A stretch of 64,000 nucleotides of DNA from positions 1,813 through 65,812 of the forward strand of contig NZ_FNZV01000011.1 in assembly GCF_900109555.1 (NCBI RefSeq), written 5' to 3'. The notes beneath the pieces are model-generated. The model was not told where the DNA came from. It saw only the letters and a list, made by a program, of their open reading frames with translations, and searched no databases. The position numbers and the translations under genes were made by a program. This document shows, piece after piece, positions 45,927-64,000 of this stretch. The first letter of the stretch is position 1. Each line of letters starts with the position of its first letter. This DNA comes from Pacificibacter marinus. GTDB lineage: Bacteria; Pseudomonadota; Alphaproteobacteria; Rhodobacterales; Rhodobacteraceae.

Positions 45927-47231
45927 TTATCCCAAGATCATATCGGGAAAGAAGGTCACAATGCCGGGGAACATCGCAAGCAAGATGACAAAGAGGATCA
46001 TGATCACCAAGAACGGGAACGTGACCCGTGCGATATAGGCAGTGCTGCGCCCTGTGATGTTTTGAATCACAGCAAAGTTGAACGCGACAGGCGGCGTGAT
46101 TTGCGCCATTTCAACGACCAGAACCATAAAGATGCCAAACCAAACTTTGTCGAACCCAGCGGCTTCCACCAAAGGCAAAACAACAGGCAGGGTCGTCGCA
46201 ATCATAGAAAAGCCTTCAAGCACAGTACCAAGCACGAGGTACAAAGCAATCAAGGCAATGATCAGCAAAATCGGTTGCAAGTCCATCGCGGTGACGACAT
46301 TGGCCACAGCGGCAGGAATACCTAAGGTCGACGTGATATTGCCTAAAACAGACGCGCCCAAAATGATTATGCCCATCACGGAACAGGTCTGAACAGCCCC
46401 CAAAACCACATCGCGCAGAACTTTGAGCGAAATGGACCCTTGGGACCACGACACAAGGAATGCGCCGAGAACACCCAAGGCCGCGGCCTCTGACGGGGTG
46501 GCAAGACCGCCGTACATCGATCCCAAAACGCACAGGATTAAGAACAAGGCTGGCGCCAATTCTTTGAGCGCCGCGAAGCGTTTGCGCAATGGCATATGAC
46601 GCAAGGCGCGTTCACTTTCGGGGATCAGGCTTGGTTTAAGCGTGGTGCGGATCATGATGTAGGCCGCGAATGTCAGCGACAGCAAAATACCTGGAATGAA
46701 CCCTGCTGTGAACAAACGCAGCACAGATTCATTAGCCAAAACGCCGTACATGATCATCACAGTCGATGGAGGGATCAAGAATCCCAACGTGCCAGCGCCC
46801 GCTAGGCCGCCAATCGCCAATTCGGGATCATAGCCGCGTTTGAGTAATTCTTTCAGCGTCATGCGTCCCACGACTTGCGTGGTCGCAGCCGAAGAACCCG
46901 AGATGGCCGCAAAGATAGAGCAACCCACAATGTTCACATGCAATAGGCGACCCGGCAGCAGCCCTGCCCATGGTGCCAAACCCGAGAATAGGGATTCAGA
47001 CAGGCGCGTGCGGAACAGAAATTCGCCCATCAAAATGAACAATGGCAAAGCGACAAGATCAGGTGTGGTCAGAATGTTGAATACATACTGTGGGAATAAT
47101 TTGTCCACGGGAATACCCGTGAAAAGTAACGCAAGACCGATGGCAGTTGTCAGCAATGAAATGCCGATCCAAGCGCCCGATGCGAGCGTGCCAAACAAAA
47201 GCCCGAAAAGGCTGGAGACGATAGCGCCCAT
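45927..47231 (-). CDS. dctM: TRAP transporter large permease (DctM-type)
   Basis: Inner-membrane transport subunit, 434 residues, about twelve hydrophobic segments. GMTLKELLKRGYDPELAIGG in part (RMTLKELLKRGYDPELA), AGTLGFLIPPSTVMIMYGVL and LVVEMAQITPPVAFNFAVI are classic DctM stretches. Sodium-driven uptake of an acidic solute together with DctP and DctQ. Last gene of the dctPQM operon, 53 bp after dctQ, and closed by a strong hairpin. Confidence 0.94.
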   Translation of the reverse strand: MGAIVSSLFGLLFGTLASGAWIGISLLTTAIGLALLFTGIPVDKLFPQYVFNILTTPDLVALPLFILMGEFLFRTRLSESLFSGLAPWAGLLPGRLLHVNIVGCSIFAAISGSSAATTQVVGRMTLKELLKRGYDPELAIGGLAGAGTLGFLIPPSTVMIMYGVLANESVLRLFTAGFIPGILLSLTFAAYIMIRTTLKPSLIPESERALRHMPLRKRFAALKELAPALFLILCVLGSMYGGLATPSEAAALGVLGAFLVSWSQGSISLKVLRDVVLGAVQTCSVMGIIILGASVLGNITSTLGIPAAVANVVTAMDLQPILLIIALIALYLVLGTVLEGFSMIATTLPVVLPLVEAAGFDKVWFGIFMVLVVEMAQITPPVAFNFAVIQNITGRSTAYIARVTFPFLVIMILFVILLAMFPGIVTFFPDMILG

Positions 47232-47284
47232 GGTATTTCCTTAGTGTTTTTGGTTTTTTGTGGAACGCTGTGCGCGCGCCAAAA

Positions 47285-47872
47285 CTATTCGATGGCGCTG
47301 GCAGCGCCTAAATCAAGATTATTTACGGTGCCACCGGTGAGGCTGGTCACAAGACGCGCGATCATTTGAAACGCCAAAACACCAGCGCCCAAAGTCAAAA
47401 CGGCTTGGGGAATCCACAAGGGCGTAAAGCTGTCGGAGACTTCACCATAGCCGTAGGTGCGCATGGTGAAATTGAACAACCAAATGGTCAAAGATGTCGA
47501 AATTACCGTGCCCAAAAGCGACGAAAATGTTTCAAACATCCGTGTCAACCACTGCCGTTTTGAGGACATGGTCAGCTCGACCCGCAATTGCAGACCGGCA
47601 CGCAGGGTCATGCCAGATCCCAAAAGAAATGCAGAGCCCATAAAATACGCGCTGTATTCCCAACCGATATGTGTGCCATTTGGCAAGAAAGGCAGGATGC
47701 GGCTTAGACTTGCTAACGCTGTGTCTACCAGAACCAGCAAAGTCAAAGCGACGATGCAAAGCCCAGCGATCCAAGCGCCAATCAGCGAAACCACATCTGC
47801 GGCCCTTTGCAGGGCCGCAGGTAGTCCGACGGATTTATGTAAGTCTTTAGATCCGTTGAATTTTTCAATCAT
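47285..47872 (-). CDS. dctQ: TRAP transporter small permease (DctQ-type)
   Basis: 195 residues, four transmembrane helices, including LIGAWIAGLCIVALTLLVLVD near the N-terminus and the conserved TLRAGLQLRVEL loop between helices 2 and 3. It pairs with the large permease. The gene is 12 bp downstream of dctP. Confidence 0.9.
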   Translation of the reverse strand: MIEKFNGSKDLHKSVGLPAALQRAADVVSLIGAWIAGLCIVALTLLVLVDTALASLSRILPFLPNGTHIGWEYSAYFMGSAFLLGSGMTLRAGLQLRVELTMSSKRQWLTRMFETFSSLLGTVISTSLTIWLFNFTMRTYGYGEVSDSFTPLWIPQAVLTLGAGVLAFQMIARLVTSLTGGTVNNLDLGAASAIE

Positions 47873-47884
47873 TTTAAGTCAATC

Positions 47885-48865
47885 TTATTTGGAGGCTTTA
47901 TAAGCATCTACGATAGGAAGTGCAGCGGGGACACGTTCAAAGAAAGCCTCTTGAACGCTGGCCGCTTTTTCAGCAATCTCGCCCAAAAGTTCATCGGACA
48001 AAGGCACCAAAGTCATACCGTTTTCGCTCATTGTTTTGATGCTGTCCAAATCGCCCTGACGAGATACATCCCAGAATGTTGGCTCAAGATCGGCTGCCAC
48101 GGCTTCGATGGCGGCACGGTCTTCGTCTGAGATTGAATTCCATGTATCGAGATTGATGGTGACAGCGTTGGAACCCCATGTGTGGTTGGTTGGGTAGATG
48201 TAGTCTAGGAATTCCCAGAACTTGCCGTCAACACCTGACGTTGCGGAGGTCGCAACACCGTCAACGCGACCCGATGCCAAAGCTGGCAGCAATTCGCCCC
48301 ATGGCATAACCACGCCCGCCATGCCGACAGCTGTTACGATGTCGACTGTGTTTTTATCAGCGCCACGAACTGGGATGCCTTTGAAGCCATCGATATCTTC
48401 GACTTCAACTTTGAGGTAAACATACTGCGCAGGGGACGGCACCATGTAGAGAATTTTTTGGTTGTACTGTTCCGCGAGCTTTTCGAACTCAGGACGCAAG
48501 AACGCGTGGTAGTCTTTCAACTCATCCATTGAGCTGACAAGGAATGGCACGCCTTCTGCGCCGAACAATGGGTTCAGGCCCACTTGTTGGCTGATGTTGA
48601 TGTCAGCCATGTCGACAAGACCGTCACGCACAGCACCCAGTTGATCGGGACCTTTAAAGCCCAATGAGCCTGCAGCGTTCACTGTGATTGTCACTTCGCC
48701 GTCTGTGGCTTTGGCCACTGCGTCTGCAAAAACTTTAGCGTTTTCGACTTGGAAGTTGCCTTCTGGCAGAACGTCTGAGAGGCGTAATTTGGTTTCTGCA
48801 GTGGCGACGTTGGCGAGAGCGATAACGGTTGCTGCGCCCAATGCGATAGATTTCAAGATGGTCAT
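47885..48865 (-). CDS. dctP: TRAP transporter substrate-binding protein (DctP-type)
   Basis: 326 residues. The signal peptide ends at ANVATAETKL. The first strand is LRLSDVLPEGNFQVENAKVF, and the family helix near FGAEGVPFLVSSMDELKDY and the ligand-site part VKVEDIDGFKGIPVRGADKN (ending in the conserved Arg) follow. The start is ATG 48865 with GGGAG upstream; the longer frame is not supported. Divergent from the LysR gene. Ligand probably an organic acid, identity unknown. Confidence 0.92.
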   Translation of the reverse strand: MTILKSIALGAATVIALANVATAETKLRLSDVLPEGNFQVENAKVFADAVAKATDGEVTITVNAAGSLGFKGPDQLGAVRDGLVDMADINISQQVGLNPLFGAEGVPFLVSSMDELKDYHAFLRPEFEKLAEQYNQKILYMVPSPAQYVYLKVEVEDIDGFKGIPVRGADKNTVDIVTAVGMAGVVMPWGELLPALASGRVDGVATSATSGVDGKFWEFLDYIYPTNHTWGSNAVTINLDTWNSISDEDRAAIEAVAADLEPTFWDVSRQGDLDSIKTMSENGMTLVPLSDELLGEIAEKAASVQEAFFERVPAALPIVDAYKASK

Positions 48866-49102
48866 TTCACATCTCCCTAAGTTGTTGATGCTTGCGTTGT
48901 CGGTATTATTGTATCCGACTTCTGCAAAGCCTGTCCGTTGTGGATTATTTGTGCCTGCAAACCGTAGCGATTCAGACGGGCTCTGAATAAGACCACTTTG
49001 ATCTGACGTGATTGCGTTTGTATATGTTACCGCCATATTGTTGACATGCGAGGCACACAGGCCTAGCGCACCTAAGTCACTTTTGACGCGAAAGGAAACC
49101 TT

Positions 49103-50008
49103 ATGGATATCAGACGGCTTAATGCATTTGTAAAGATTGTCGACATCGGAAGCATCACACGTGCCTCAGCAATCTTGCATATTGCTCAACCCGCGCTGAG
49201 CCAACAGATTGCGGCATTAGAGACGCATTTTGGTAAGCCTTTGTTGTTGCGCTCCAAACGCGGTGTTGTGCCCACGGAAGCAGGCAAGGTTTTGTATCGC
49301 CACTGCCAGCTTATTCTTAAGCAAATGGACCAAACGGAACTTGAAATAGCAAGCGCATCCGAAGAAATTTCCGGTGTCGTTTGCGTGGGGCTTGCACCTT
49401 TGGGTTTGGGGTCTTTGTTGGCGGCTCAATTGATCAAAACCATCCATGAAGATTTCCCCGGAATTATTCTTTACATCAATGAGAACGTCGGCGGCGGTGC
49501 CATGAGCGAATTGGTGATGACTGGCAAAATGGATGTCGCTTTGCTGTTTGACCCTGGAAATTTACCCAGCCTGTCTTTTAAGCGCATTTGTACAGAAGAG
49601 TTACACTTTGTGACGGCTGACACGGCTTTGCTGGACGGGTTGACCGAAATCTCCTTGGTGGATGCAATTGCAACACCGCTTATTTTGCCCAGTAAAATTC
49701 ACACCATTCGCCAAGTGATCGACACGACTTTGGCGCGTGCGGGTCTGACAAAACGTGCGATTGCCGAAACGGAATCGATTTCTGTGCTGTCCAACGCCAT
49801 TGGTGAGGGGCTGTGCGCGACGATTCTGCCGCAATCGGCGGCAAAAGCTGTTCAACGACGCATCCCAGAAGCGCGCAGCGTGCGCATTCATAAGCCGAAC
49901 ATGAAGGTCAATATGTCGATCTGCGTGTCAGCTCAGTTGCCCCTGTCCGAAGCGGCGGCTGTGGTTCAAGACCATCTTACGCGATTGGCAACCGAACTGT
50001 CCGTATAA
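49103..50008 (+). CDS. LysR-family transcriptional regulator
   Basis: 301 residues. The helix-turn-helix is at residues 3-60 (RLNAFVKIVDIGSITRASAI, AQPALSQQIAALE), followed by a PBP-type effector domain. Divergent from dctPQM (237-bp gap) and upstream of the aldolase and carboxylase genes, so it probably controls the island's uptake and first steps. The closest remembered group is Nac/CbbR-like regulators, but the effector is unknown. Confidence 0.9.
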   Translation: MDIRRLNAFVKIVDIGSITRASAILHIAQPALSQQIAALETHFGKPLLLRSKRGVVPTEAGKVLYRHCQLILKQMDQTELEIASASEEISGVVCVGLAPLGLGSLLAAQLIKTIHEDFPGIILYINENVGGGAMSELVMTGKMDVALLFDPGNLPSLSFKRICTEELHFVTADTALLDGLTEISLVDAIATPLILPSKIHTIRQVIDTTLARAGLTKRAIAETESISVLSNAIGEGLCATILPQSAAKAVQRRIPEARSVRIHKPNMKVNMSICVSAQLPLSEAAAVVQDHLTRLATELSV

Positions 50009-50138: not shown

Positions 50139-50813
50139 CTACAGGTCTGTTGTCAGGCCTTTGGCTTTCAAAACAGCCTCAAGATTGCACACGTCGATAA
50201 TGGTGCGACCTGATTTGTAGGCCTCGATGTATTCTGCTTCGGCGTCTTCGCGGGCTTGCGACAATTTCGCGGCCTCAGCGGCGTCTTCTTTGCGCACCAT
50301 CACAAGACCATCCGCATCACCGCAGATCACATCACCGGGGCGAATGGTTTCGCCGCCAACGATGATATCGCCGTTCACTTGACCAAGTGTTTCTTTGACA
50401 GTGCCTTTGATGCACACGGACATCGAAAACACAGGCAAACCAAGTGCGATCAGCTCTTGAGTGTCACGCACGCCAGTGTCTGTCACAACGCCAGCGATGC
50501 CTTTTGCCACACAGGCGTTGCCCAAAACGTCGCCAAAGCTGCCCGCTTCTTCATAGGCGCCACCAGAGACAACAATCACGTCACCCGCTTTGGCATAATG
50601 GATCGCGAGTTGCAGCATGAGGTTGTCACGCGGCGCTGAAACGGTTGTAAAAGCCGGACCACACACCCGCATGTCGCGGTGAATGGGTTTGATGGTTGAA
50701 TTCAACGCGCCCAAACGTCCCTGAGCTTCGTGAATGGTCGCGCTGCCAAATTTAGCAAGCGCAGCCACGTCTTCTGCGGCAGCCCGTTCAATTTTCGTAA
50801 TGATATGTGGCAT
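50139..50813 (-). CDS. RraA/LigK-type 4-hydroxy-4-methyl-2-oxoglutarate aldolase family protein
   Basis: 224 residues. Class II pyruvate-aldolase of the RraA fold. GDVIVVSGGAYEEAGSFGDV is the pocket loop and VVTDTGVRDTQEL holds the Arg-Asp pair (substrate and metal). Such enzymes cleave 4-hydroxy-4-carboxy-2-oxoadipate or methyl-oxoglutarate and can decarboxylate oxaloacetate. The start is ATG 50813, with GGGAAAAG before it. Length and catalytic residues suit an enzyme rather than the RNase inhibitor RraA. Confidence 0.85.
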   Translation of the reverse strand: MPHIITKIERAAAEDVAALAKFGSATIHEAQGRLGALNSTIKPIHRDMRVCGPAFTTVSAPRDNLMLQLAIHYAKAGDVIVVSGGAYEEAGSFGDVLGNACVAKGIAGVVTDTGVRDTQELIALGLPVFSMSVCIKGTVKETLGQVNGDIIVGGETIRPGDVICGDADGLVMVRKEDAAEAAKLSQAREDAEAEYIEAYKSGRTIIDVCNLEAVLKAKGLTTDL

Positions 50814-51068
50814 GTCGATCTTTTCCCTCAATTTTGCGTCTCTATTCAGAGATCGCCTTCACGAGCAGAGTAAGAGACGCGACAGCCGAAGGATAAGAGC
50901 ACCTGCGTCTGACGTGATCGGCTTTTGCAATGTTTGATTTGACTGCTGATCCATTGCGAAAACGAAGATTAAAAAAGGCGGTCATCTGAAACTGGTCTGA
51001 CATCATTGCGAAGCCACGGTGCTAAAGTCTGTGACAACAAACACAAACAATTAGGGACCAACTTGTCC

Positions 51069-51503
51069 ATGTTGATCGAAATTGACGCCATAATTGCACA
51101 AATGAAATGGGCCGCCGCGCGTGGCCTATCCGAGTTTGCTGTAAATACATCTGGCGCGCGCATTCATATACGTCGTAGCGGCGCACTGACTGCATCTGCC
51201 GCATCGCAAACGACGCACAATCATGTGCCGTCTTCTGCCGAAACGGAGGCCCCCACGCCCAATGCCGCAAAGACCGTTGACGCACCCATGGCTGGTATTT
51301 GCCACCTGTCGGGGGACAGTGATAGCGCGCCGTTTGTCTCTGTTGGTGACGCGATTGGTGTCGGTCAAACGATTTGTTTGATTGAGGCCATGAAGGTGAT
51401 GACCTCTATCACCGCAACCACTGCTGGCACAGTTAAAGCCATTCTTGTCGAAGATGGTGTCTCAGTTGATGCAGGCACGGCCTTGATTGAGGTGAGCTCA
51501 TGA
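51069..51503 (+). CDS. Biotin carboxyl carrier protein
   Basis: 144 residues. The N-terminal helix-strand unit (IDAIIAQMKWAAARGLSEFA) resembles AccB. An Ala/Thr/Pro-rich linker (about 40-70) leads to a biotinyl domain with Lys109 in CLIEAMKVMTSI, the biotin site. First gene of a six-gene operon with biotin carboxylase, PxpB, PxpC, a second carrier-like protein and PxpA. Annotation pipelines would call it acetyl-CoA carboxylase AccB, but the neighbours suggest a special-purpose carboxylase. AGGGA lies 11 bases before ATG 51069. Confidence 0.9.
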   Translation: MLIEIDAIIAQMKWAAARGLSEFAVNTSGARIHIRRSGALTASAASQTTHNHVPSSAETEAPTPNAAKTVDAPMAGICHLSGDSDSAPFVSVGDAIGVGQTICLIEAMKVMTSITATTAGTVKAILVEDGVSVDAGTALIEVSS

Positions 51504-52867
51504 GTGCTCCTAAGAATACAGTGTTGATCGCCAACCGTGGCGAAATCGCGCTGCGTATTATCCGCGCCTGCCGCCGTTTGGGCCTGCGCTCTGTCTGCGC
51601 TTTTTCAGAAGCAGATCGCGGTGCACAATATTTGGATTTGGCGGATGCATCCATCTGTATTGGACCTGCATCGGCCACCAAAAGCTATCTCAATATTCCG
51701 GCCATTTTGGCTGCGGCTGATATTATGGGTGCGGATATGATCCACCCAGGATACGGTTTTCTATCTGAAAACGCTGACTTTTCTGAAGCGGTTGCGCAGG
51801 CGGGTCTGACCTTGATCGGGCCGAGCGCTGACGTGATGCGACGCATGGGCGACAAGGTTGCAGCCAAAACTGCCATGATTGAAAGTGGTGTGCCTTGCGT
51901 GCCTGGTCCTGACAGCGTGCTGCCCGATGACATCGCCGAAATCACTCGAATCGCGCAAGACATTGGATACCCAGTCATCCTGAAAGCCGCTGGCGGCGGC
52001 GGTGGTCGTGGCATGCGTATCGTCAAATCTAATGATGCTTTGGCGGATGCCTTTATGTTGACCAAACAAGAAGCGCAGCGGTTTTTCAGCAATCCAGACA
52101 TCTATATGGAAAAGTTTCTCGAAAAGCCGCGCCATGTTGAAATTCAAGTGATTTGCGATTCTCACGGCCATGCCCTGTGGCTTGGCGATCGTGATTGTTC
52201 GATGCAACGTCGCCATCAAAAGATGATCGAAGAAGCGCCTGCGCCCGGAATTGATCGCGACTTGATTGCCAAAATCGGCGAACGCTGTGCAGCCTCTTGT
52301 CGTGAAATCGGTTATGTTGGTGCGGGCACGTTCGAGTTTTTGTACGAAAACGGCGCGTTCTTTTTTATCGAAATGAACACCCGTATTCAGGTTGAACATC
52401 CTGTCACTGAAATGGTCACCGGCCTAGATATAGTTGCGCTGCAAATCGATGTGGCCCGCGGTGCGCAGTTGTCGATCACTCAAGATGACGTCCAAACCGT
52501 TGGTCATTCCATTGAATGCCGGATCAACGCCGAAGACCCGATTACATTCGCACCAAGCCCCGGTCCAATCGATTATATGCATGTGCCCGGCGGCCCCGGT
52601 GTCCGCGTCGATACGCATATCGCAACGGGGTCAAGCATCTCGGCGAGTTACGATTCGATGGTGGCCAAAGTCATCACCCATGGTGCCACCCGTGACGAGG
52701 CTTTGGCCCGTGCGCGCAGTGCGCTGAACGAAATGCGAATTGAGGGTGTCAGCACAAATATTCCGCTGCACTGCCAGCTTTTGGACGATGACGGATTTGC
52801 CAAAGGGGGCGTGAGTATTCACCACCTTGAACACTGGTTGGAAAAACGGGAGCTTGATCATGAGTGA
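51500..52867 (+). CDS. Biotin carboxylase (AccC-type)
   Basis: 455 residues, ATP-grasp enzyme that carboxylates biotin on the carrier protein with bicarbonate. N-terminal VLIANRGEIALRIIRACRRL, glycine-rich ATP loop KAAGGGGGRGMRIV, catalytic EMNTRIQVEHPVTEMVTG, then the C-domain. Length and motifs match AccC. The ATG overlaps the carrier gene by four bases, and its end overlaps pxpB by eight. It probably serves this operon's CT-like PxpBC rather than fatty-acid synthesis. Confidence 0.93.
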   Translation: MSAPKNTVLIANRGEIALRIIRACRRLGLRSVCAFSEADRGAQYLDLADASICIGPASATKSYLNIPAILAAADIMGADMIHPGYGFLSENADFSEAVAQAGLTLIGPSADVMRRMGDKVAAKTAMIESGVPCVPGPDSVLPDDIAEITRIAQDIGYPVILKAAGGGGGRGMRIVKSNDALADAFMLTKQEAQRFFSNPDIYMEKFLEKPRHVEIQVICDSHGHALWLGDRDCSMQRRHQKMIEEAPAPGIDRDLIAKIGERCAASCREIGYVGAGTFEFLYENGAFFFIEMNTRIQVEHPVTEMVTGLDIVALQIDVARGAQLSITQDDVQTVGHSIECRINAEDPITFAPSPGPIDYMHVPGGPGVRVDTHIATGSSISASYDSMVAKVITHGATRDEALARARSALNEMRIEGVSTNIPLHCQLLDDDGFAKGGVSIHHLEHWLEKRELDHE

Positions 52868-53513
52868 TACAAAACTATCGCTCATTGGCAGCCGCGCTGT
52901 CTTATTCGAAGCGGATTGCCCGTTCGATTTGGCGCACCAAGAACGCATTTGGGCGCTCACCGCAGCGGCGTCTCAATGGGATGGCGTTGTTGAGGCCGTG
53001 CCAGGTATGACCAATTTAACGTTGCTTTTGGCCGATGTGCCACAAGACCTGACACGGATTGAACGTGATCTTGCGGCGCTCTGGGCCAAAGGTACGCGCC
53101 GCGAAGTGGATGGAAAATTGCTTGAGATTGACCTGACCTATGGTGGGGCAGGTGGCCCGCATCTAGCGGACGTGGCCGAGATGACGGGCATGTCTATCGA
53201 TGCGGTGATCAAGATGCACAGCACGCCAGATTATACCGTTTATGCCGTCGGCAGTCATGCTGGATATTGCTATCTTGGCGGGCTTGATAAGCGTCTTGAG
53301 ACACCGCGCCGCAAAGTGCCTTTGCCGCGTTTGCCCGGTGGGTCTTTGTCTGTTGCGGGTCTGCAAACCGGCGTGTCTGCCTCGGCTGGTCCAAGCGGTT
53401 GGAACACGATTGGCAGTGCAGATATTTCCTTTTTTGATCCGTTTAGAGCCACGCCTGCGTTGCTACAACCCGGCGATCGCATTCGCTTTTTACCAGTCGA
53501 GGTGAACGCATGA
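52860..53513 (+). CDS. pxpB: 5-oxoprolinase subunit PxpB (KipI/allophanate hydrolase subunit 1 family)
   Basis: 217 residues, CT_C_D domain: VEAVPGMTNLTLLLADV near residue 45, TPDYTVYAVGSHAGYCYLGG, then RLETPRRKVPLPRLPGGSLS (in part) and SGWNTIGSAD. With PxpC it forms the carboxyltransferase-like half known from urea amidolyase and 5-oxoprolinase PxpABC. The start is ATG 52860, eight bases inside the biotin carboxylase gene. Confidence 0.9.
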   Translation: MSDTKLSLIGSRAVLFEADCPFDLAHQERIWALTAAASQWDGVVEAVPGMTNLTLLLADVPQDLTRIERDLAALWAKGTRREVDGKLLEIDLTYGGAGGPHLADVAEMTGMSIDAVIKMHSTPDYTVYAVGSHAGYCYLGGLDKRLETPRRKVPLPRLPGGSLSVAGLQTGVSASAGPSGWNTIGSADISFFDPFRATPALLQPGDRIRFLPVEVNA

Positions 53514-54487
53514 TCGAAGTTCTTTCTCTTCCCCCCTTAGCAACCGTGCAAGATCTTGGGCGTGACGGATTTTGGCAGCAAGGTCTGGGGCGCGCTGGTG
53601 CCATGGACCCGATGAGCCACAGTCTTGCCAACCTTATGCTTGGCAATGATGCAAATGCGGCAACACTTGAAATCCCTTTGTCGCCTGCGCGGTTCCAATT
53701 TGTTGAACGCACTGCATTCGCGCTTGTGGGTGCTGCGTGTGATGCGCGGCTTGACGGGCGCGCTTTGCCACGGGTTTTTGCGGGCATCGCGGATAAAAAT
53801 CAGGTGCTTGAACTAGGTGTGATGACACAGGGTGCGCGGGTGTATTTGGCACTCAGCGGCGGCATTGATGTTGCTGTTGTACTTGGATCGCGTAGCACAC
53901 AGTTGCGCGAAGGTTTTGGCGGTTTTGAAGGCCGTGTTTTGGCACAGGGCGATCGACTTGTGCCCGCGACTAACAGTCTCCCTAAATTGCCTAAAAACGG
54001 GCTAAGCCTAAGCTTGCCGCCTCTGCGCTCTGAGCAATCCTCGGATATCGTTTTACGGGCCTTGCCATCCACCGAGCATGACAGTTTTAGTTCCGAGGCC
54101 CTTTCCGCATTTTGGTCTGCCCCCTATGTCATTACGCCGCAAAGCAATCGCCAAGGCTATCGTTTTGAAGGTCCCGAGCTTGATCGCGCGTCACAAGGCG
54201 AGTTGCGGTCTCATGGGATTGTGCCGGGTATCGTGCAGGTTCCTGGCGGCGGGCAACCGATTATTCAGCTTGCAGATTCCGCGACCATGGGGGGCTACCC
54301 CAAAATTGCGGCGGTGATTGAACAAGACTTGTGGCGGATCGGCCAAGCACGCCCCGGTGATGCAGTGAGATTTGAAAAGATCACGCTTGAGGCTGCGGCC
54401 CAAGCAGTGGCCGATGAGGCCAGTTTGCGCGTGCAGTACTGCGATGATCTGGACGTGATGCGCACTCAGATAACGGGTTGGACCTGA
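53510..54487 (+). CDS. pxpC: 5-oxoprolinase subunit PxpC (KipA/biotin-dependent carboxyltransferase family)
   Basis: 325 residues, CT_A_B domain. TVQDLGRDGFWQQGLGRAGA and MDPMSHSLANLMLGND at the N-terminus, then GIVPGIVQVPGGGQPIIQLA and TMGGYPKIAAVIEQDL, all family hallmarks. Partner of PxpB (ATGA overlap). In this setting, beside a biotin carboxylase and carrier, it may truly use carboxybiotin. Confidence 0.9.
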   Translation: MIEVLSLPPLATVQDLGRDGFWQQGLGRAGAMDPMSHSLANLMLGNDANAATLEIPLSPARFQFVERTAFALVGAACDARLDGRALPRVFAGIADKNQVLELGVMTQGARVYLALSGGIDVAVVLGSRSTQLREGFGGFEGRVLAQGDRLVPATNSLPKLPKNGLSLSLPPLRSEQSSDIVLRALPSTEHDSFSSEALSAFWSAPYVITPQSNRQGYRFEGPELDRASQGELRSHGIVPGIVQVPGGGQPIIQLADSATMGGYPKIAAVIEQDLWRIGQARPGDAVRFEKITLEAAAQAVADEASLRVQYCDDLDVMRTQITGWT

Positions 54488-54488
54488 T

Positions 54489-54893
54489 ATGTTTACACAG
54501 ACTGAACTTGATCGTTTGATCGATGCTATGCGGGCGAATGGGGTCTCATCTCTTGAAGTTGAGGCGCAAGACCAACAGCTGCATCTTGACCTTGCACCCG
54601 CGCCGTTTCCCGAGGTGCCGTTGCCCGCGGTTGCTCCCGTTTCTACGCGGGTTGTTCCCGCCAAAAGCCCTTGTATTGGTCGGTTTGTGCCACGGGGTAT
54701 CGATGACGGCCTGATGCATCTTGAGAGCGCACAAAAGGTCGAGGCCGGAGAAACGCTTGGCTACGTTGTCCAACAACACGCCCGTGCGGTGGTCGCTGCC
54801 CCAGCGGCCGGAACACTGATCGGGGATGCGCCACAATCCGGCACAATTTTTGGATATGGCGACACGATTATTCGCCTTGAGGTGACATCATGA
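54489..54893 (+). CDS. Biotinyl-domain protein lacking the biotin lysine
   Basis: 134 residues with the same plan as the carrier at 51069: an N-terminal helix-strand unit (DRLIDAMRANGVSSLEVEA), a Pro-rich linker and a biotinyl/lipoyl fold (KVEAGETLGYVVQQHARAVV, AAPAAGTLIGD). Where the active carrier has EAMKVM, this one reads VQQHARA, so no biotin can be attached. It may be a structural or regulatory subunit. One base after the pxpC stop; its end overlaps pxpA. Confidence 0.8.
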   Translation: MFTQTELDRLIDAMRANGVSSLEVEAQDQQLHLDLAPAPFPEVPLPAVAPVSTRVVPAKSPCIGRFVPRGIDDGLMHLESAQKVEAGETLGYVVQQHARAVVAAPAAGTLIGDAPQSGTIFGYGDTIIRLEVTS

Positions 54894-55666
54894 ACATCGA
54901 CATAAATTCTGATTTGGGCGAAGGGTTCGGCCCCTACACCATCGCCAACGACGCCGAGCTTATGCGACATATCAGTTCGGCAAATGTGGCCTGCGGCTAT
55001 CACGCTGGCGATCCTGTCATCATGGACCGCACCATTCGTCTGGCCAAAGAGCACGGTGTCGATTTGGGGGCGCATGTAAGCTTTCCTGATTTGATGGGCT
55101 TTGGCCGCCGCAAGATCGATATGGCGTTGCCTGAATTGGAAGCACATATTCTGTATCAACTCGGGGCGCTGCATGGCTTGGCGCGCAGAGCAGATCATAA
55201 AATCACCCATATGAACCCGCATGGGGCTTTGGGAAACCTTGCCAGCTCTGACCCTGATGTCGCTTTGTCCGTGGCTTCTGCCACCATGGCATTTGATCCT
55301 GATATCGCTTTTCTTGTGCTGCCTGGCAGTGCGTTGGAAAAAGCGGCTTTGGATTTGGGCGGACAAGTTGTGCGGTTGTTTTTGGCAGATCGCGGCTATC
55401 TGCCCAACGGTCAACTGGCTCCACGTTCGCAGGCTGGCGCTGTCATTCATGATCCCGCGCTTGTTGCGGAACGCGTCTTGAGTGTTTTGAAAACCGCCCA
55501 AGTTACCACTGTTACAGGCGAGGTTATCCCGATGCCGGTGCAGTCTATTCTCATCCACTCCGATACCGCTGGCGCCGTCGGTCTTGCGACGCGTTTGCGA
55601 CACGACATCACCACTGCAGGCGGGGCGATCACGCCACTGTCGCAACAAAAACAACCTCACACTTAA
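54890..55666 (+). CDS. pxpA: 5-oxoprolinase subunit PxpA (LamB/YcsF family)
   Basis: 258 residues. INSDLGEGFGPYTI at the start, ANVACGYHAGDPVIMDRTIR, GVDLGAHVSFPDLMGFGRR and HMNPHGALGN are the family's acidic and histidine motifs. In PxpABC it completes ATP-dependent opening of 5-oxoproline to glutamate. Here it closes an operon with biotin-carboxylase parts, so the lactam substrate may differ. Confidence 0.92.
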   Translation: MNIDINSDLGEGFGPYTIANDAELMRHISSANVACGYHAGDPVIMDRTIRLAKEHGVDLGAHVSFPDLMGFGRRKIDMALPELEAHILYQLGALHGLARRADHKITHMNPHGALGNLASSDPDVALSVASATMAFDPDIAFLVLPGSALEKAALDLGGQVVRLFLADRGYLPNGQLAPRSQAGAVIHDPALVAERVLSVLKTAQVTTVTGEVIPMPVQSILIHSDTAGAVGLATRLRHDITTAGGAITPLSQQKQPHT

Positions 55667-55693: not shown

Positions 55694-56467
55694 ATGGCAT
55701 TTTCAGAGTACAAAACAGCCCTCGTCACCGGAGCTTCCTCCGGTATGGGCTGGGGCATCGCAGAACGTTTGCGTGCCAAGGGTCTGACAGTTCACGCTGT
55801 GGGTCGCAACGCCGAGAAATTGGAAGAACTCAAAGACCTTTGTGGGGTTATCCCGCACGCGGTTGATATTTCCGACACAGCCGCGATTACTGAATTGGTC
55901 GACGGTTTGGATATCGACGTTCTGGTAAACTGTGCTGGCGTGTCACGTCCGGGTAGCATTTTACAGTCGGATGCGTTCGACATCGACGAGCAAATCGACG
56001 TAAACCTGCGCGCTGGTCTGCATCTGTGCCGTTTGATCCTTCCGGGTATGATGGAGCGGGATTCAGGTCATATCGTTAACATCACTTCGATGGCGGGCTT
56101 GTATGAATTTGGCGGGCACATTGCCTATCACGCCACCAAAGCGGCGATGCACACTGTTTCACGTCAGCTTCGCGTTGATGCCTTTGGGCGTCGTGTGCGT
56201 GTGACTGAAATCAGCCCCGGTCGTGTGGAAACTGATATCTTTGCGCGTGTTGAAAATATCTCTTCTGAAGAAGCAAAAGCCAAATATTTTGAAGGTATGG
56301 AAATGCCGCAGGTGTCTGATATCGCGGATGCAGTTGAATACGCCGTTGATACACCCAATTACGTCAACATTGGTATGATCGAACTGCTGCCAACACTGCA
56401 AGTTCCTGGTGGTTTGCGCACTGGTAAACGGGTTGGCGACGAAGTCATCCTGACAGGCAAAAAGTAA
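55694..56467 (+). CDS. SDR family oxidoreductase
   Basis: 257 residues, classical SDR. Cofactor loop GASSGMGWGIAERL near residue 14, NCAGVSRPG, Ser in NITSMAGL, and catalytic Tyr-Lys in AYHATKAAM. 27 bp after pxpA, with AAGGA upstream, so probably the same transcript. Likely oxidises or reduces a hydroxy/keto acid intermediate of the island. Specificity is unknown. Confidence 0.88.
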   Translation: MAFSEYKTALVTGASSGMGWGIAERLRAKGLTVHAVGRNAEKLEELKDLCGVIPHAVDISDTAAITELVDGLDIDVLVNCAGVSRPGSILQSDAFDIDEQIDVNLRAGLHLCRLILPGMMERDSGHIVNITSMAGLYEFGGHIAYHATKAAMHTVSRQLRVDAFGRRVRVTEISPGRVETDIFARVENISSEEAKAKYFEGMEMPQVSDIADAVEYAVDTPNYVNIGMIELLPTLQVPGGLRTGKRVGDEVILTGKK

Positions 56468-56532: not shown

Positions 56533-57768
56533 ATGCCCAACATTTGCAGGAAGAAGATCTTGACCTCTATTAAACTCGCCGCCCGTGTCACCAATATCCG
56601 ATTGTCCCCTTCGACCGCCGCCGCTCAAAAGGTGCGCGACCTCAAGGCTGAGGGCCGCGAAATTCTGAACCTTACGGTGGGCGAACCCGATTTTGATACA
56701 CCGCAAAGCGTCAAAGACGCAGCGATCGCCGCAATCAATGCTGGCGATACAAAATATACATCCGTCAACGGTACTGTCGCGCTGCGCAAAGCCATTCAAC
56801 ACGACTATAAAACACGGTTGAACATTGATTGCAGCCTAGATGAAATCTGTGTTGGCGGTGGTGCGAAACAAGTGTTGTTTGTGGCTTTGATGGCCACTGT
56901 GGAAGAGGGTGACGAAGTCATCATCCCAGCGCCTTACTGGGTATCTTACCCTGATATGGTCATTGCCAATGGCGGCACGCCAGTGATCGTGAAATGTGGT
57001 GAAGACGTTGGATTCAAACTGACACCTGAGATTTTGGAAGCGGCGATCACGCCAGCAACCAAATGGGTTATTTTGAATTCCCCATCCAACCCAACAGGCG
57101 CGGCCTACAACGCTGAAGAACTGCGCGCGCTTGGCGATGTTTTGGTGAAACACCCGCATGTCTTGGTGATGTGTGATGAAATTTATGACCGCATTTGGTA
57201 CGCTGATTTTGACGCGTGCAGCATCTTGGGTGTCTGCCCAGAGCTGAAAAACCAAGCTTTGGTGTCTAATGGCGTGTCCAAATCTTACGCCATGACAGGG
57301 TGGCGGATTGGTTATGCGGTTGGGCCGTTGCAATTGATCAACGCGATCAACAAGTTGCAGTCTCAGATGTCTTCGTGTCCGTCCTCTGTAAGTCAAGCCG
57401 CAGCCGCGTTTGCTTTGACCGCCGATCAGTCGGGCGTCACAGAAGCTGTTGAAGTGTACCGCGCGCGTCGCGATCGTGCGCATGAATTGATCAACGCCAT
57501 TCCGGAACTGAGCTGTACACTGCCAGACGGTGCATTTTATCTGTACCCTTGTTGTGCGGGCGCGATTGGCAAAACGACTCCGTCGGGCACAAAAATCGAG
57601 AGTGATCTTGATTTTGGCCTCTACCTTTTGGACACTGCGGGCGTTGCGTCGGTTCATGGCGGCGCTTACGGGCTTGAGCCATATTTCCGGATTTCGACAG
57701 CCACATCGATGGAAGAAATCGAAGCGGCTTGTGCCAAAATTGCAGAAGCCTGTGCGGCTTTGACCTAA
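56533..57768 (+). CDS. Class I/II PLP-dependent aminotransferase (aspartate-aminotransferase-like)
   Basis: 411 residues from ATG 56533; a TTG at 56563 after AGGAAGAAG would give the more usual N-terminus. Fold-type I markers: LTVGEPDFDTP, YTSVNGTVALRKAI, LNSPSNPTGAAYNAEELRAL, CDEIYDRIWY, and the PLP lysine in SNGVSKSYAMTGWRIGYAVG, with a late Arg in YFRISTA. Probably transaminates an amino or keto acid made by the PxpABC-type operon just upstream. A terminator follows. Confidence 0.9.
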   Translation: MPNICRKKILTSIKLAARVTNIRLSPSTAAAQKVRDLKAEGREILNLTVGEPDFDTPQSVKDAAIAAINAGDTKYTSVNGTVALRKAIQHDYKTRLNIDCSLDEICVGGGAKQVLFVALMATVEEGDEVIIPAPYWVSYPDMVIANGGTPVIVKCGEDVGFKLTPEILEAAITPATKWVILNSPSNPTGAAYNAEELRALGDVLVKHPHVLVMCDEIYDRIWYADFDACSILGVCPELKNQALVSNGVSKSYAMTGWRIGYAVGPLQLINAINKLQSQMSSCPSSVSQAAAAFALTADQSGVTEAVEVYRARRDRAHELINAIPELSCTLPDGAFYLYPCCAGAIGKTTPSGTKIESDLDFGLYLLDTAGVASVHGGAYGLEPYFRISTATSMEEIEAACAKIAEACAALT

Positions 57769-63551: not shown

Positions 63552-63619
63552 AGGCGTGCCGCGCTTTGTGCGTGGCCCGCATAGAACTTCAATCAAAACC
63601 TAACCCAGAAAGATCACTG

Positions 63620-64000
63620 ATGATTATCACTTGCGTTACCAACGAAGTTTACCCCGATGCATCCTCTGAAAGTTTGCCCAAAATTTTTGGGCGCGCCCAA
63701 GAGCAAGGCATCGGTTCATTTGAGTTGAGACTCGTTGAAGGCAAACGTTTCCCAATGTTTGAAGCCGATGCATTCGCGCGTTTAAAAGAACAGTCTAAAG
63801 AATTTGGCATCAACTATACGGCCGTGTCTCCCGGCTTGTTCAAAGTGCCTTTGAAAAGTGAACTGACAGCGCTGCACACCAATTACTTGTTGCCAATGAG
63901 CTTGGACTTGGCGGATGAAATGGGCATCAAAACGTTGATTTTGTTTGGCCCAACGCGTGCTGAAAACCCTGCGGCCAACGAGTTTGACGAGGTTGTTGCC
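63620..64000 (+). CDS. Sugar phosphate isomerase/epimerase-type TIM-barrel protein, cut by right edge
   Basis: 127 residues visible, running out of the window. MIITCVTNEVYPDASSES, ARAQEQGIGSFELRLVEGKR in part, and MGIKTLILFGPT look like the first strands of an AP-endonuclease-2/xylose-isomerase-like barrel. The ATG at 63620 follows AGAAAGA. It is 68 bp after the ABC operon and may join it. The metal ligands lie beyond the edge, so the reaction cannot be judged. Confidence 0.65.
   Translation, partial: MIITCVTNEVYPDASSESLPKIFGRAQEQGIGSFELRLVEGKRFPMFEADAFARLKEQSKEFGINYTAVSPGLFKVPLKSELTALHTNYLLPMSLDLADEMGIKTLILFGPTRAENPAANEFDEVVA

Follow-up and report, generated by a model that had tools for sequence, protein, structure and literature searches.

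A putative PxpABC-type enzyme with a dedicated biotin carboxylase system and a carrier lacking biotin, from Pacificibacter marinus

The window analysed here, 64,000 nucleotides of Pacificibacter marinus (Rhodobacteraceae; NCBI RefSeq assembly GCF_900109555.1, contig NZ_FNZV01000011.1, positions 1,813 to 65,812), carries six open reading frames which run on the + strand as a single block from 51069 to 55666 and encode, in order, a biotin carboxyl carrier protein (BCCP1), a biotin carboxylase (BC), PxpB, PxpC, a second carrier-like protein (BCCP2) and PxpA. Assignment of the protein families with Pfam and NCBIfam profiles bears out this block, which had been reported in a preliminary description of the locus. 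We class the product of the operon as a putative enzyme of PxpABC type that has a biotin carboxylase system to itself and is accompanied by a carrier without biotin. The conservation of the operon suggests that CO2 is first attached to a ring, which is then opened, with help from a look-alike carrier that has lost its biotin site.

Composition of the operon

BCCP1 (51069–51503, +) has an AccB-like N-terminal segment, matches the Pfam family Biotin_lipoyl (1.8e-17) and retains the motif EAMKV with Lys109 as the residue to be biotinylated, a position at which all 20 of 20 aligned BCCP1 sequences have lysine. The adjoining BC (51500–52867, +) is a dedicated paralogue, 52% identical to the organism's own housekeeping AccC, which scores 658.7 bits against the accC model TIGR00514 (cut-off 626.5) and retains GGGGGRGM, EMNTRIQVEHPVTEM and ECRINAEDP, which we take to be catalytic BC motifs. 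PxpB (52860–53513, +), a carboxyltransferase C/D subunit (CT_C_D), and PxpA (54890–55666, +), a lactam hydrolase of the LamB/YcsF family (LamB_YcsF 5.2e-87), pass the models of the corresponding PxpABC subunits (TIGR00370, 187.0 against a cut-off of 145.6, and NF003814 respectively). The carboxyltransferase A/B subunit PxpC (53510–54487, +; CT_A_B) passes only the broader TIGR00724 (284.4, cut-off 230.2), its score of 283.9 bits against the PxpC equivalog NF045499 lying well below the cut-off of 500. Adjacent genes overlap by 4, 8, 4 and 4 bp, with the starts chosen for BCCP1 and PxpB (their frames, taken at full length, open at 51006 and 52827). The end-to-end overlap previously described is thus seen for most neighbours, the exception being PxpC and BCCP2 (54489–54893, +), which are 1 bp apart.

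The set therefore contains what is broadly expected of a biotin-dependent carboxylase, namely a BC with intact motifs, a carrier with its biotinyl lysine and a partner of carboxyltransferase fold (CT_A_B/CT_C_D). It does not conform to acetyl-CoA carboxylase, for while the BC exceeds its equivalog cut-off, BCCP1 reaches 81.1 against 115.2 for TIGR00531 and BCCP2 gives no match. Neither is it a single-chain urea carboxylase, as the genes are separate and the best score against TIGR02712 is 487.7 (from the BC) against 1303.85.

The genome holds four BC domains, in the window BC and in frames of 452, 718 and 1159 residues. The 452-residue frame adjoins a biotin-carrier frame of 176 residues on another contig, and this pair constitutes the housekeeping accC and accB; the possibility that the operon holds the only accB/accC copies, which the preliminary description had named as fatal to its proposal, is thereby ruled out. 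It is very improbable that the biotin proteins of the operon are one half of an ordinary acyl-CoA carboxylase, working with a housekeeping carboxyltransferase and sharing the operon with PxpBCA by chance or co-regulation. Such an origin would accord with the accC score of the BC, with its grouping among AccC-like proteins and with the presence in the genome of three frames matching Carboxyl_trans. These three frames, however, all lie on contigs other than that of the window, the genome already has its accB–accC pair, and the annotation shows no Carboxyl_trans gene near the operons of Paracoccus, Burkholderia and Microvirga (the hidden Markov model (HMM) set of the locus survey contained no model for it); moreover a biotin carboxyltransferase is among the homologues of PxpBC. 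Genome-wide there is one PxpC and one PxpA, together with one HyuA-HyuB fusion of 1239 residues (G000:C22, L188:2355-6074), an architecture which we take to be that of the other, eukaryote-type 5-oxoprolinase. The presence of this fusion, absent from the preliminary description, makes plain 5-oxoproline a less obvious substrate of the operon.

BCCP2 had been described as a second carrier-like protein. Its likeness to a carrier is upheld, but it is no biotin carrier, the site of the biotinyl lysine being occupied by His97, a loss that had escaped the earlier account. Although BCCP2 has no Pfam or NCBIfam match, phmmer relates it to E. coli AccB (4hr7_B, 3.4e-7), and hhalign aligns 24 BCCP2 with 20 BCCP1 sequences across 135 columns, including the N-terminal segment, with an E-value of 1.8e-21. 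The structural model (predicted local distance difference test (pLDDT) 90.1) has as its top match 4hr7_G, the BCCP of the E. coli BCCP-BC complex (Z 12.0, root-mean-square deviation 2.1, 77 aligned residues), in a comparison that barely covers the N-terminal 50 residues. Lysine is missing from the biotinyl column in 39 of 40 BCCP2 rows, a count that includes the window row and the repeats L151 and L170; 13 different residues are found there and no row has AMK. Our early view that lysine never occurs in BCCP2 was wrong, since L018 carries one outside any AMK context. The ratio of nonsynonymous to synonymous substitution rates in two close pairs is 0.32 and 0.22 for BCCP2, against 0.47 and 0.35 for BCCP1, indicating that the gene is not decaying. 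BCCP2 is an AccB-fold protein that has lost its biotin site and, in combining a BCCP fold with the lack of a biotinyl-lysine motif, is a bacterial counterpart of plant BADC. The NCBI database labels the protein 'hypothetical' in Paracoccus and 'biotin carboxyl carrier' in Burkholderia and Microvirga; by this evidence the latter label (L148:9365-9838, L149:9361-9777) is wrong, the biotinyl lysine being missing.

Conservation and descent of the gene set

A search with PxpC alone gave 48 named loci, 23 of which have both BC and BCCP2 beside PxpC. All six genes were called in 21 of these 23, the exceptions being L027, cut by a 3.4 kb contig, and L034, without a PxpB or PxpA call. Since the set recurs so often and in more than one order, its assembly is not a matter of chance. 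It is found in Rhodobacterales, Rhizobiales, Acetobacter and Burkholderiales, that is in alpha- and betaproteobacteria; one further operon (L032) looks alphaproteobacterial though filed under a cyanobacterial metagenome-assembled genome (MAG). The order of the window also occurs in Burkholderia pyrrocinia, Microvirga terrae and Variovorax, while Acetobacter has PxpB-PxpC-PxpA-BCCP1-BC-BCCP2 and five alphaproteobacteria (L152, L153, L156, L159, L161) have BCCP1-BC-BCCP2-PxpB-PxpC-PxpA. Conservation of the six-gene order, proposed earlier as a check, thus holds for the gene set and for the window order in other genera, but not for the order throughout. Three pairs of loci are repeats (L017 of L016, L151 of L033, L170 of L021) and L135 is a possible repeat of L059.

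In an alphaproteobacterial survey drawn regardless of BC, PxpC was found in 84 of 289 genomes. From these matches 80 regions were fetched, which contain 81 unfused copies as well as the long frame L142; the remaining frames longer than 1,150 residues, interpreted as urea carboxylases fused to BC, were left out together with three short fragments. Among 82 unfused copies read, a BC lies within 4.5 kb on the same strand in 20 (the window included), a carrier only in 2 and neither in 60; 21 loci without BC stop near a contig end, where one may be hidden. Sixteen of the 20 BC-bearing copies, several from the same genera, share an arrangement here called type B, PxpA-BCCP-BC-PxpB-PxpC with a carrier of about 78 residues, one member (L074) having no PxpA in reach. 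The earlier statement that PxpABC otherwise lacks such partners was therefore mistaken. The other BC-bearing copies include two of type D (L095, L099), whose BC belongs to a third lineage, and one divergent member (L113) of type A, the type of the window. Three genomes of one alphaproteobacterial family (G066, G164, G244) have four or five PxpC copies each (L070, L072, L073, L075, L077, L083, L095, L099, L104, L105, L110, L118), some as tandem PxpB-PxpC pairs and some with the type D BC. An Albidovulum MAG has a type A operon without BCCP1 and BC (L020) and elsewhere a type B operon (L144) which stands behind what, by eye, resembles a sugar ABC importer. At the level of the phylum, 20 loci (19 fetched and one from the family search) divide into 8 with BC and BCCP2, 2 with BCCP2 only and 10 with neither. 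In a sample of the window's own family PxpC was matched at an E-value of 1e-40 or better in 31 of 248 genomes, with identity above 50% only in the window and in G362 (68%), so that the operon is patchily distributed there.

A PxpC tree that includes E. coli-type rows places 31 of 70 rows in a type A clade (support 100/99; row L151 repeats L033), of which 26 have BC and BCCP2, 3 have BCCP2 only and 2 have neither. Its sister is a 10-row clade holding PxpC of E. coli K-12 (joint support 100/100), and a separate 12-row clade (100/98) unites types B and D with a urea carboxylase. In a quick tree of BCs, where those outside the operons are labelled by frame length, the type A proteins form one 22-row clade (Shimodaira-Hasegawa-like approximate likelihood ratio test (SH-aLRT) 99) nested among AccC-like proteins, the type B proteins a separate 10-row clade (100) and those of type D a third of 2 rows (100), near BCs of propionyl-CoA carboxylase (PCC) and urea-carboxylase type. 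Because these lie in separate lines, we infer that BC joined PxpBC-type genes more than once. A single origin of all BC-linked PxpBC had been suggested by an initial tree lacking the E. coli-type rows (a clade of 60 rows, SH-aLRT 92), and was given up when those rows were added and the BC tree gave separate lines. That BC and BCCP belong with PxpBC, as the preliminary description held, is borne out by the conservation of the set across classes, the dedicated BC clade, the homology of PxpBC to the carboxyltransferase of urea carboxylase and a complex in PDB entry 9yx5 considered below. That description as a whole is partly supported.

Active-site residues, neighbouring genes and the proposed reaction

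The link to biotin is supported by this comparative evidence, while the chemistry is unproven. With moderate confidence we propose that the six genes specify a lactam (cyclic amide) N-carboxylase/hydrolase which depends on biotin, its substrate perhaps being a substituted 5-oxoproline. The BC would carboxylate the biotin of BCCP1 using ATP and bicarbonate, and the PxpB-PxpC pair, as a carboxyltransferase of urea-carboxylase type, would pass the carboxyl group onto the lactam nitrogen; PxpA would then open the activated ring, giving an N-carboxy amino acid that sheds CO2. By analogy with BADC in plant acetyl-CoA carboxylase, BCCP2 may act as a scaffold which holds AccBC-type subunits on PxpBC. 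On the proposed reading the operon would encode a biotin enzyme that opens lactams, a chemistry of interest for the breakdown of lactams of the nylon type.

The model of PxpC (pLDDT 93.4) matches 5dud (Z 40.8) and the urea amidolyase of K. lactis, 5i8i (Z 36.3). Type A proteins are marked by Gln at PxpC 253, mostly Leu elsewhere, and by Ser (Ala or Gln in a small number of rows) at PxpB 132, where E. coli-type rows and 99% of other stand-alone rows have Phe; both markers hint at a changed pocket. The window PxpB also has a loop GSHAGYCYLGG in place of GFxPGF. Two further candidates were discarded. PxpC residues E189, N213 and H235 are not specific to type A, as E. coli PxpC has them too. A Pro-to-Ala change at PxpB site 138 of the alignment, whose numbering runs 4 above that of the window PxpB, was consistent, as a sign of BC coupling, with much of the initial set, and was dropped because Pro is retained in BC-bearing operons of Burkholderia, Variovorax, Microvirga, Acetobacter and the L152 type.

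An unlikely alternative is a classical ATP-dependent PxpABC 5-oxoprolinase, in which PxpBC activates 5-oxoproline with ATP, PxpA hydrolyses it, and BC, BCCP1 and BCCP2 are dispensable accessories, serving for example rate or bicarbonate supply. It draws on the E. coli PxpC of the sister clade, which has E189, N213 and H235 in common with that of the window, on the shared arginine of PxpB at the site of urea carboxylase Lys1605, and on relatives with no adjacent BC. As to how PxpABC uses ATP, phosphorylation of 5-oxoproline by PxpBC is assumed in the accessible part of one study (PMC13274462), and the available text of another gives ATP hydrolysis by co-purified PxpB and PxpC (PMC8453981). On the other hand, BC and BCCP1 are retained across several gene orders, separate BC lines stand beside PxpBC, the markers at PxpB 132 and PxpC 253 described above hint at a difference in the pocket, and the genome already has its HyuAB fusion.

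The genes around the operon bear on the substrate. An SDR oxidoreductase (55694–56467, +; family profile match) starts 27 bp past PxpA and is followed by a member of the aspartate aminotransferase family (AspAT; 56533–57768, +; PRK06107, 663 bits, cut-off 617). Upstream and divergent lies a gene of the RraA/HMG-CHA aldolase family (50139–50813, -; 3noj, 3.2e-45), with a NAC-like LysR regulator (49103–50008, +; PRK11233, 288.5 bits against a cut-off of 309) and a TRAP importer, DctM-DctQ-DctP (45927–48871, -), further out. Within 6 kb of 24 BC-bearing type A loci (L017 dropped) AspAT was found at 20, RraA at 18, SDR at 16, DctM at 11, LysR at 8 and DctP at 7; beside 80 PxpC copies without BC outside the clade the figures are 0, 0, 0, 8, 1 and 5, although the HMMs were trained on type A and distant homologues could escape them. 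This association of aldolase, aminotransferase and SDR with type A likewise goes beyond the earlier account. The Burkholderia operon also neighbours PEP carboxylase and D-glycerate dehydrogenase, and that of Microvirga a 2-hydroxyacid dehydrogenase and an alpha-hydroxy acid oxidase. The top PDB matches of DctP are 2pfy and 2pfz, presumably the Bordetella receptors DctP7 and DctP6. Structures of DctP6 and DctP7 were solved with 5-oxoproline, according to the accessible part of the source (PMC13274462). The substrate may thus be a substituted, for example hydroxylated, 5-oxoproline, imported by way of TRAP. The aspartate-type aminotransferase would act first on its amino acid product, and the RraA-type aldolase would then split the resulting compound. 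A transaminase followed by an HMG/CHA-family aldolase would suit a 4-hydroxy-2-oxo acid, which would in turn point to a hydroxylated 5-oxoproline. One such route would lead from 4-hydroxyglutamate through 4-hydroxy-2-oxoglutarate to pyruvate and glyoxylate. The operon also points to an uncharacterised catabolic route in marine and soil bacteria. Downstream of the Dpp importer, at a distance of a few kb from each other, are two proteins that resemble one another by eye, at 63617–64000 of the window and at L143:6153-6953; the first has a weak match to a xylose-isomerase-like TIM barrel (22.0 bits, cut-off 31.1).

It is improbable that the substrate is instead an open-chain amide or a urea- or guanidine-like compound, PxpA hydrolysing the carboxylated product. 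PxpC does have the fold of the urea carboxylase carboxyltransferase, and on a plasmid of Paraburkholderia sabiae (L150:6550-11400) the cluster PxpB-PxpC-accB-accC-BCCP2 adjoins HyuA/HyuB hydantoinase/oxoprolinase genes; PxpA is there split across two frames and unannotated. The urea-carboxylase-like lysine is, however, found in types B and D and not in type A, DctP is nearest to receptors that we take to be pyroglutamate binders, and the closest PxpC clade includes that of E. coli.

Several observations weigh against the proposed biotin-dependent opening of a lactam. For the K. lactis carboxyltransferase, Lys1605 is named as the probable general base in the accessible part of its description (PMC5770610), and counting along the printed alignment places this residue at 'GTK'. 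The window PxpB has Arg150 at this site (154 in the alignment), as do all type A PxpB read and each of the 70 rows that fall outside both BC-linked clades; lysine is found in types B, D and urea carboxylase, and leucine in three BC-less rows of that clade. Type A is thus not simply a split urea carboxylase. The E. coli pxpBCA operon, whose PxpC lies in the sister clade, has no adjacent BC and is annotated as 5-oxoprolinase, and B. subtilis PxpABC has reportedly been reconstituted from purified proteins without BC. Within clade A, neither a BC nor a carrier lies near L037 and L040, each of whose genomes has a single stand-alone BC frame (460 and 498 residues), and L020, L154 and L158 keep BCCP2 and PxpABC without an adjacent BC; L154 and L158, from another class, also keep AspAT, LysR and SDR, again with one stand-alone BC frame per genome. 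Such relatives either rely on the AccBC of the housekeeping set, BCCP2 serving as adaptor, or have no need of biotin, and they are the weakest point of the proposal. They also bear on the second refuting condition of the preliminary description, that PxpABC should work equally well when the biotin proteins are absent. As to the substrate, RraA, SDR and AspAT were not found near the Acetobacter loci L035 and L036, the MAG locus L034 or L027 (on its 3.4 kb contig). PDB entry 6wgm scores almost as well with DctP as 2pfy and 2pfz, the presumed pyroglutamate receptors.

A broader conjecture, which we hold to be rather doubtful, is that BCCP2 is an adaptor plugging AccB/AccC-type subunits into PxpBC and that PxpBC in general, that of E. 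coli included, is a cryptic biotin carboxyltransferase borrowing AccBC. The ATP step of 5-oxoprolinase would then be lactam N-carboxylation, and type A would combine a private biotin supply with a new, substituted-lactam substrate.

Relation to known systems

The operon shares its three subunit families with the PxpABC 5-oxoprolinase of E. coli (pxpBCA) and B. subtilis and, with E. coli, the relative order pxpB-pxpC-pxpA. It differs in having a BC, a biotin carrier and a biotin-less carrier, in the changes at PxpB 132 and PxpC 253 and in its aldolase, aminotransferase and SDR neighbours. With urea carboxylase/urea amidolyase (K. lactis 3va7, 5i8i) it has in common a BC, a BCCP and the same carboxyltransferase fold; the two-step activation, N-carboxylation followed by hydrolysis, is a proposal of this analysis for the operon. 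The operon is unlike that enzyme in its separate polypeptides, in having Arg at the Lys1605 position and PxpA where the enzyme has allophanate hydrolase, and in the additional BCCP2.

The PxpC model also returned 9yx5, by its title a long chain acyl-CoA carboxylase complex of M. smegmatis with MSMEG_0435-MSMEG_0436 bound, in which chains V and W match the window PxpC and PxpB. A PxpC/PxpB homologue pair would thus sit, as judged from title and chain matches, on a complex with AccA3, a BC-BCCP protein also contained in the entry, for which no paper was found in the literature searches made. As a point of difference, AccA3 serves acyl-CoA carboxylases. Together with operons that bring their own biotin carboxylase, this complex makes a carboxylation mechanism directly testable. 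In Pseudomonas aeruginosa we take PA0492, PA0495 and PA0496 to be PxpA, PxpB and PxpC, in the type B order PxpA-BCCP-BC-PxpB-PxpC and without BCCP2. The accessible part of a report on the PA0493-PA0496 operon describes its products as AccB-like and AccC-like (55%), their precise function being given as unknown (PMC6249292). No paper with a title or abstract describing the operon of the window was found within the partial literature covered, which does not establish that it is unpublished.

Among known proteins BCCP2 is comparable to plant BADC, a relative of BCCP without the biotinylation motif that acts with BC and BCCP and that is termed unique to the plant enzyme in the available portion of its source (PMC11926652). 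Both are BCCP-type proteins that lack the biotin motif, and BCCP2 would extend this kind of biotin-less carrier to bacteria, where it is found in a PxpABC operon.

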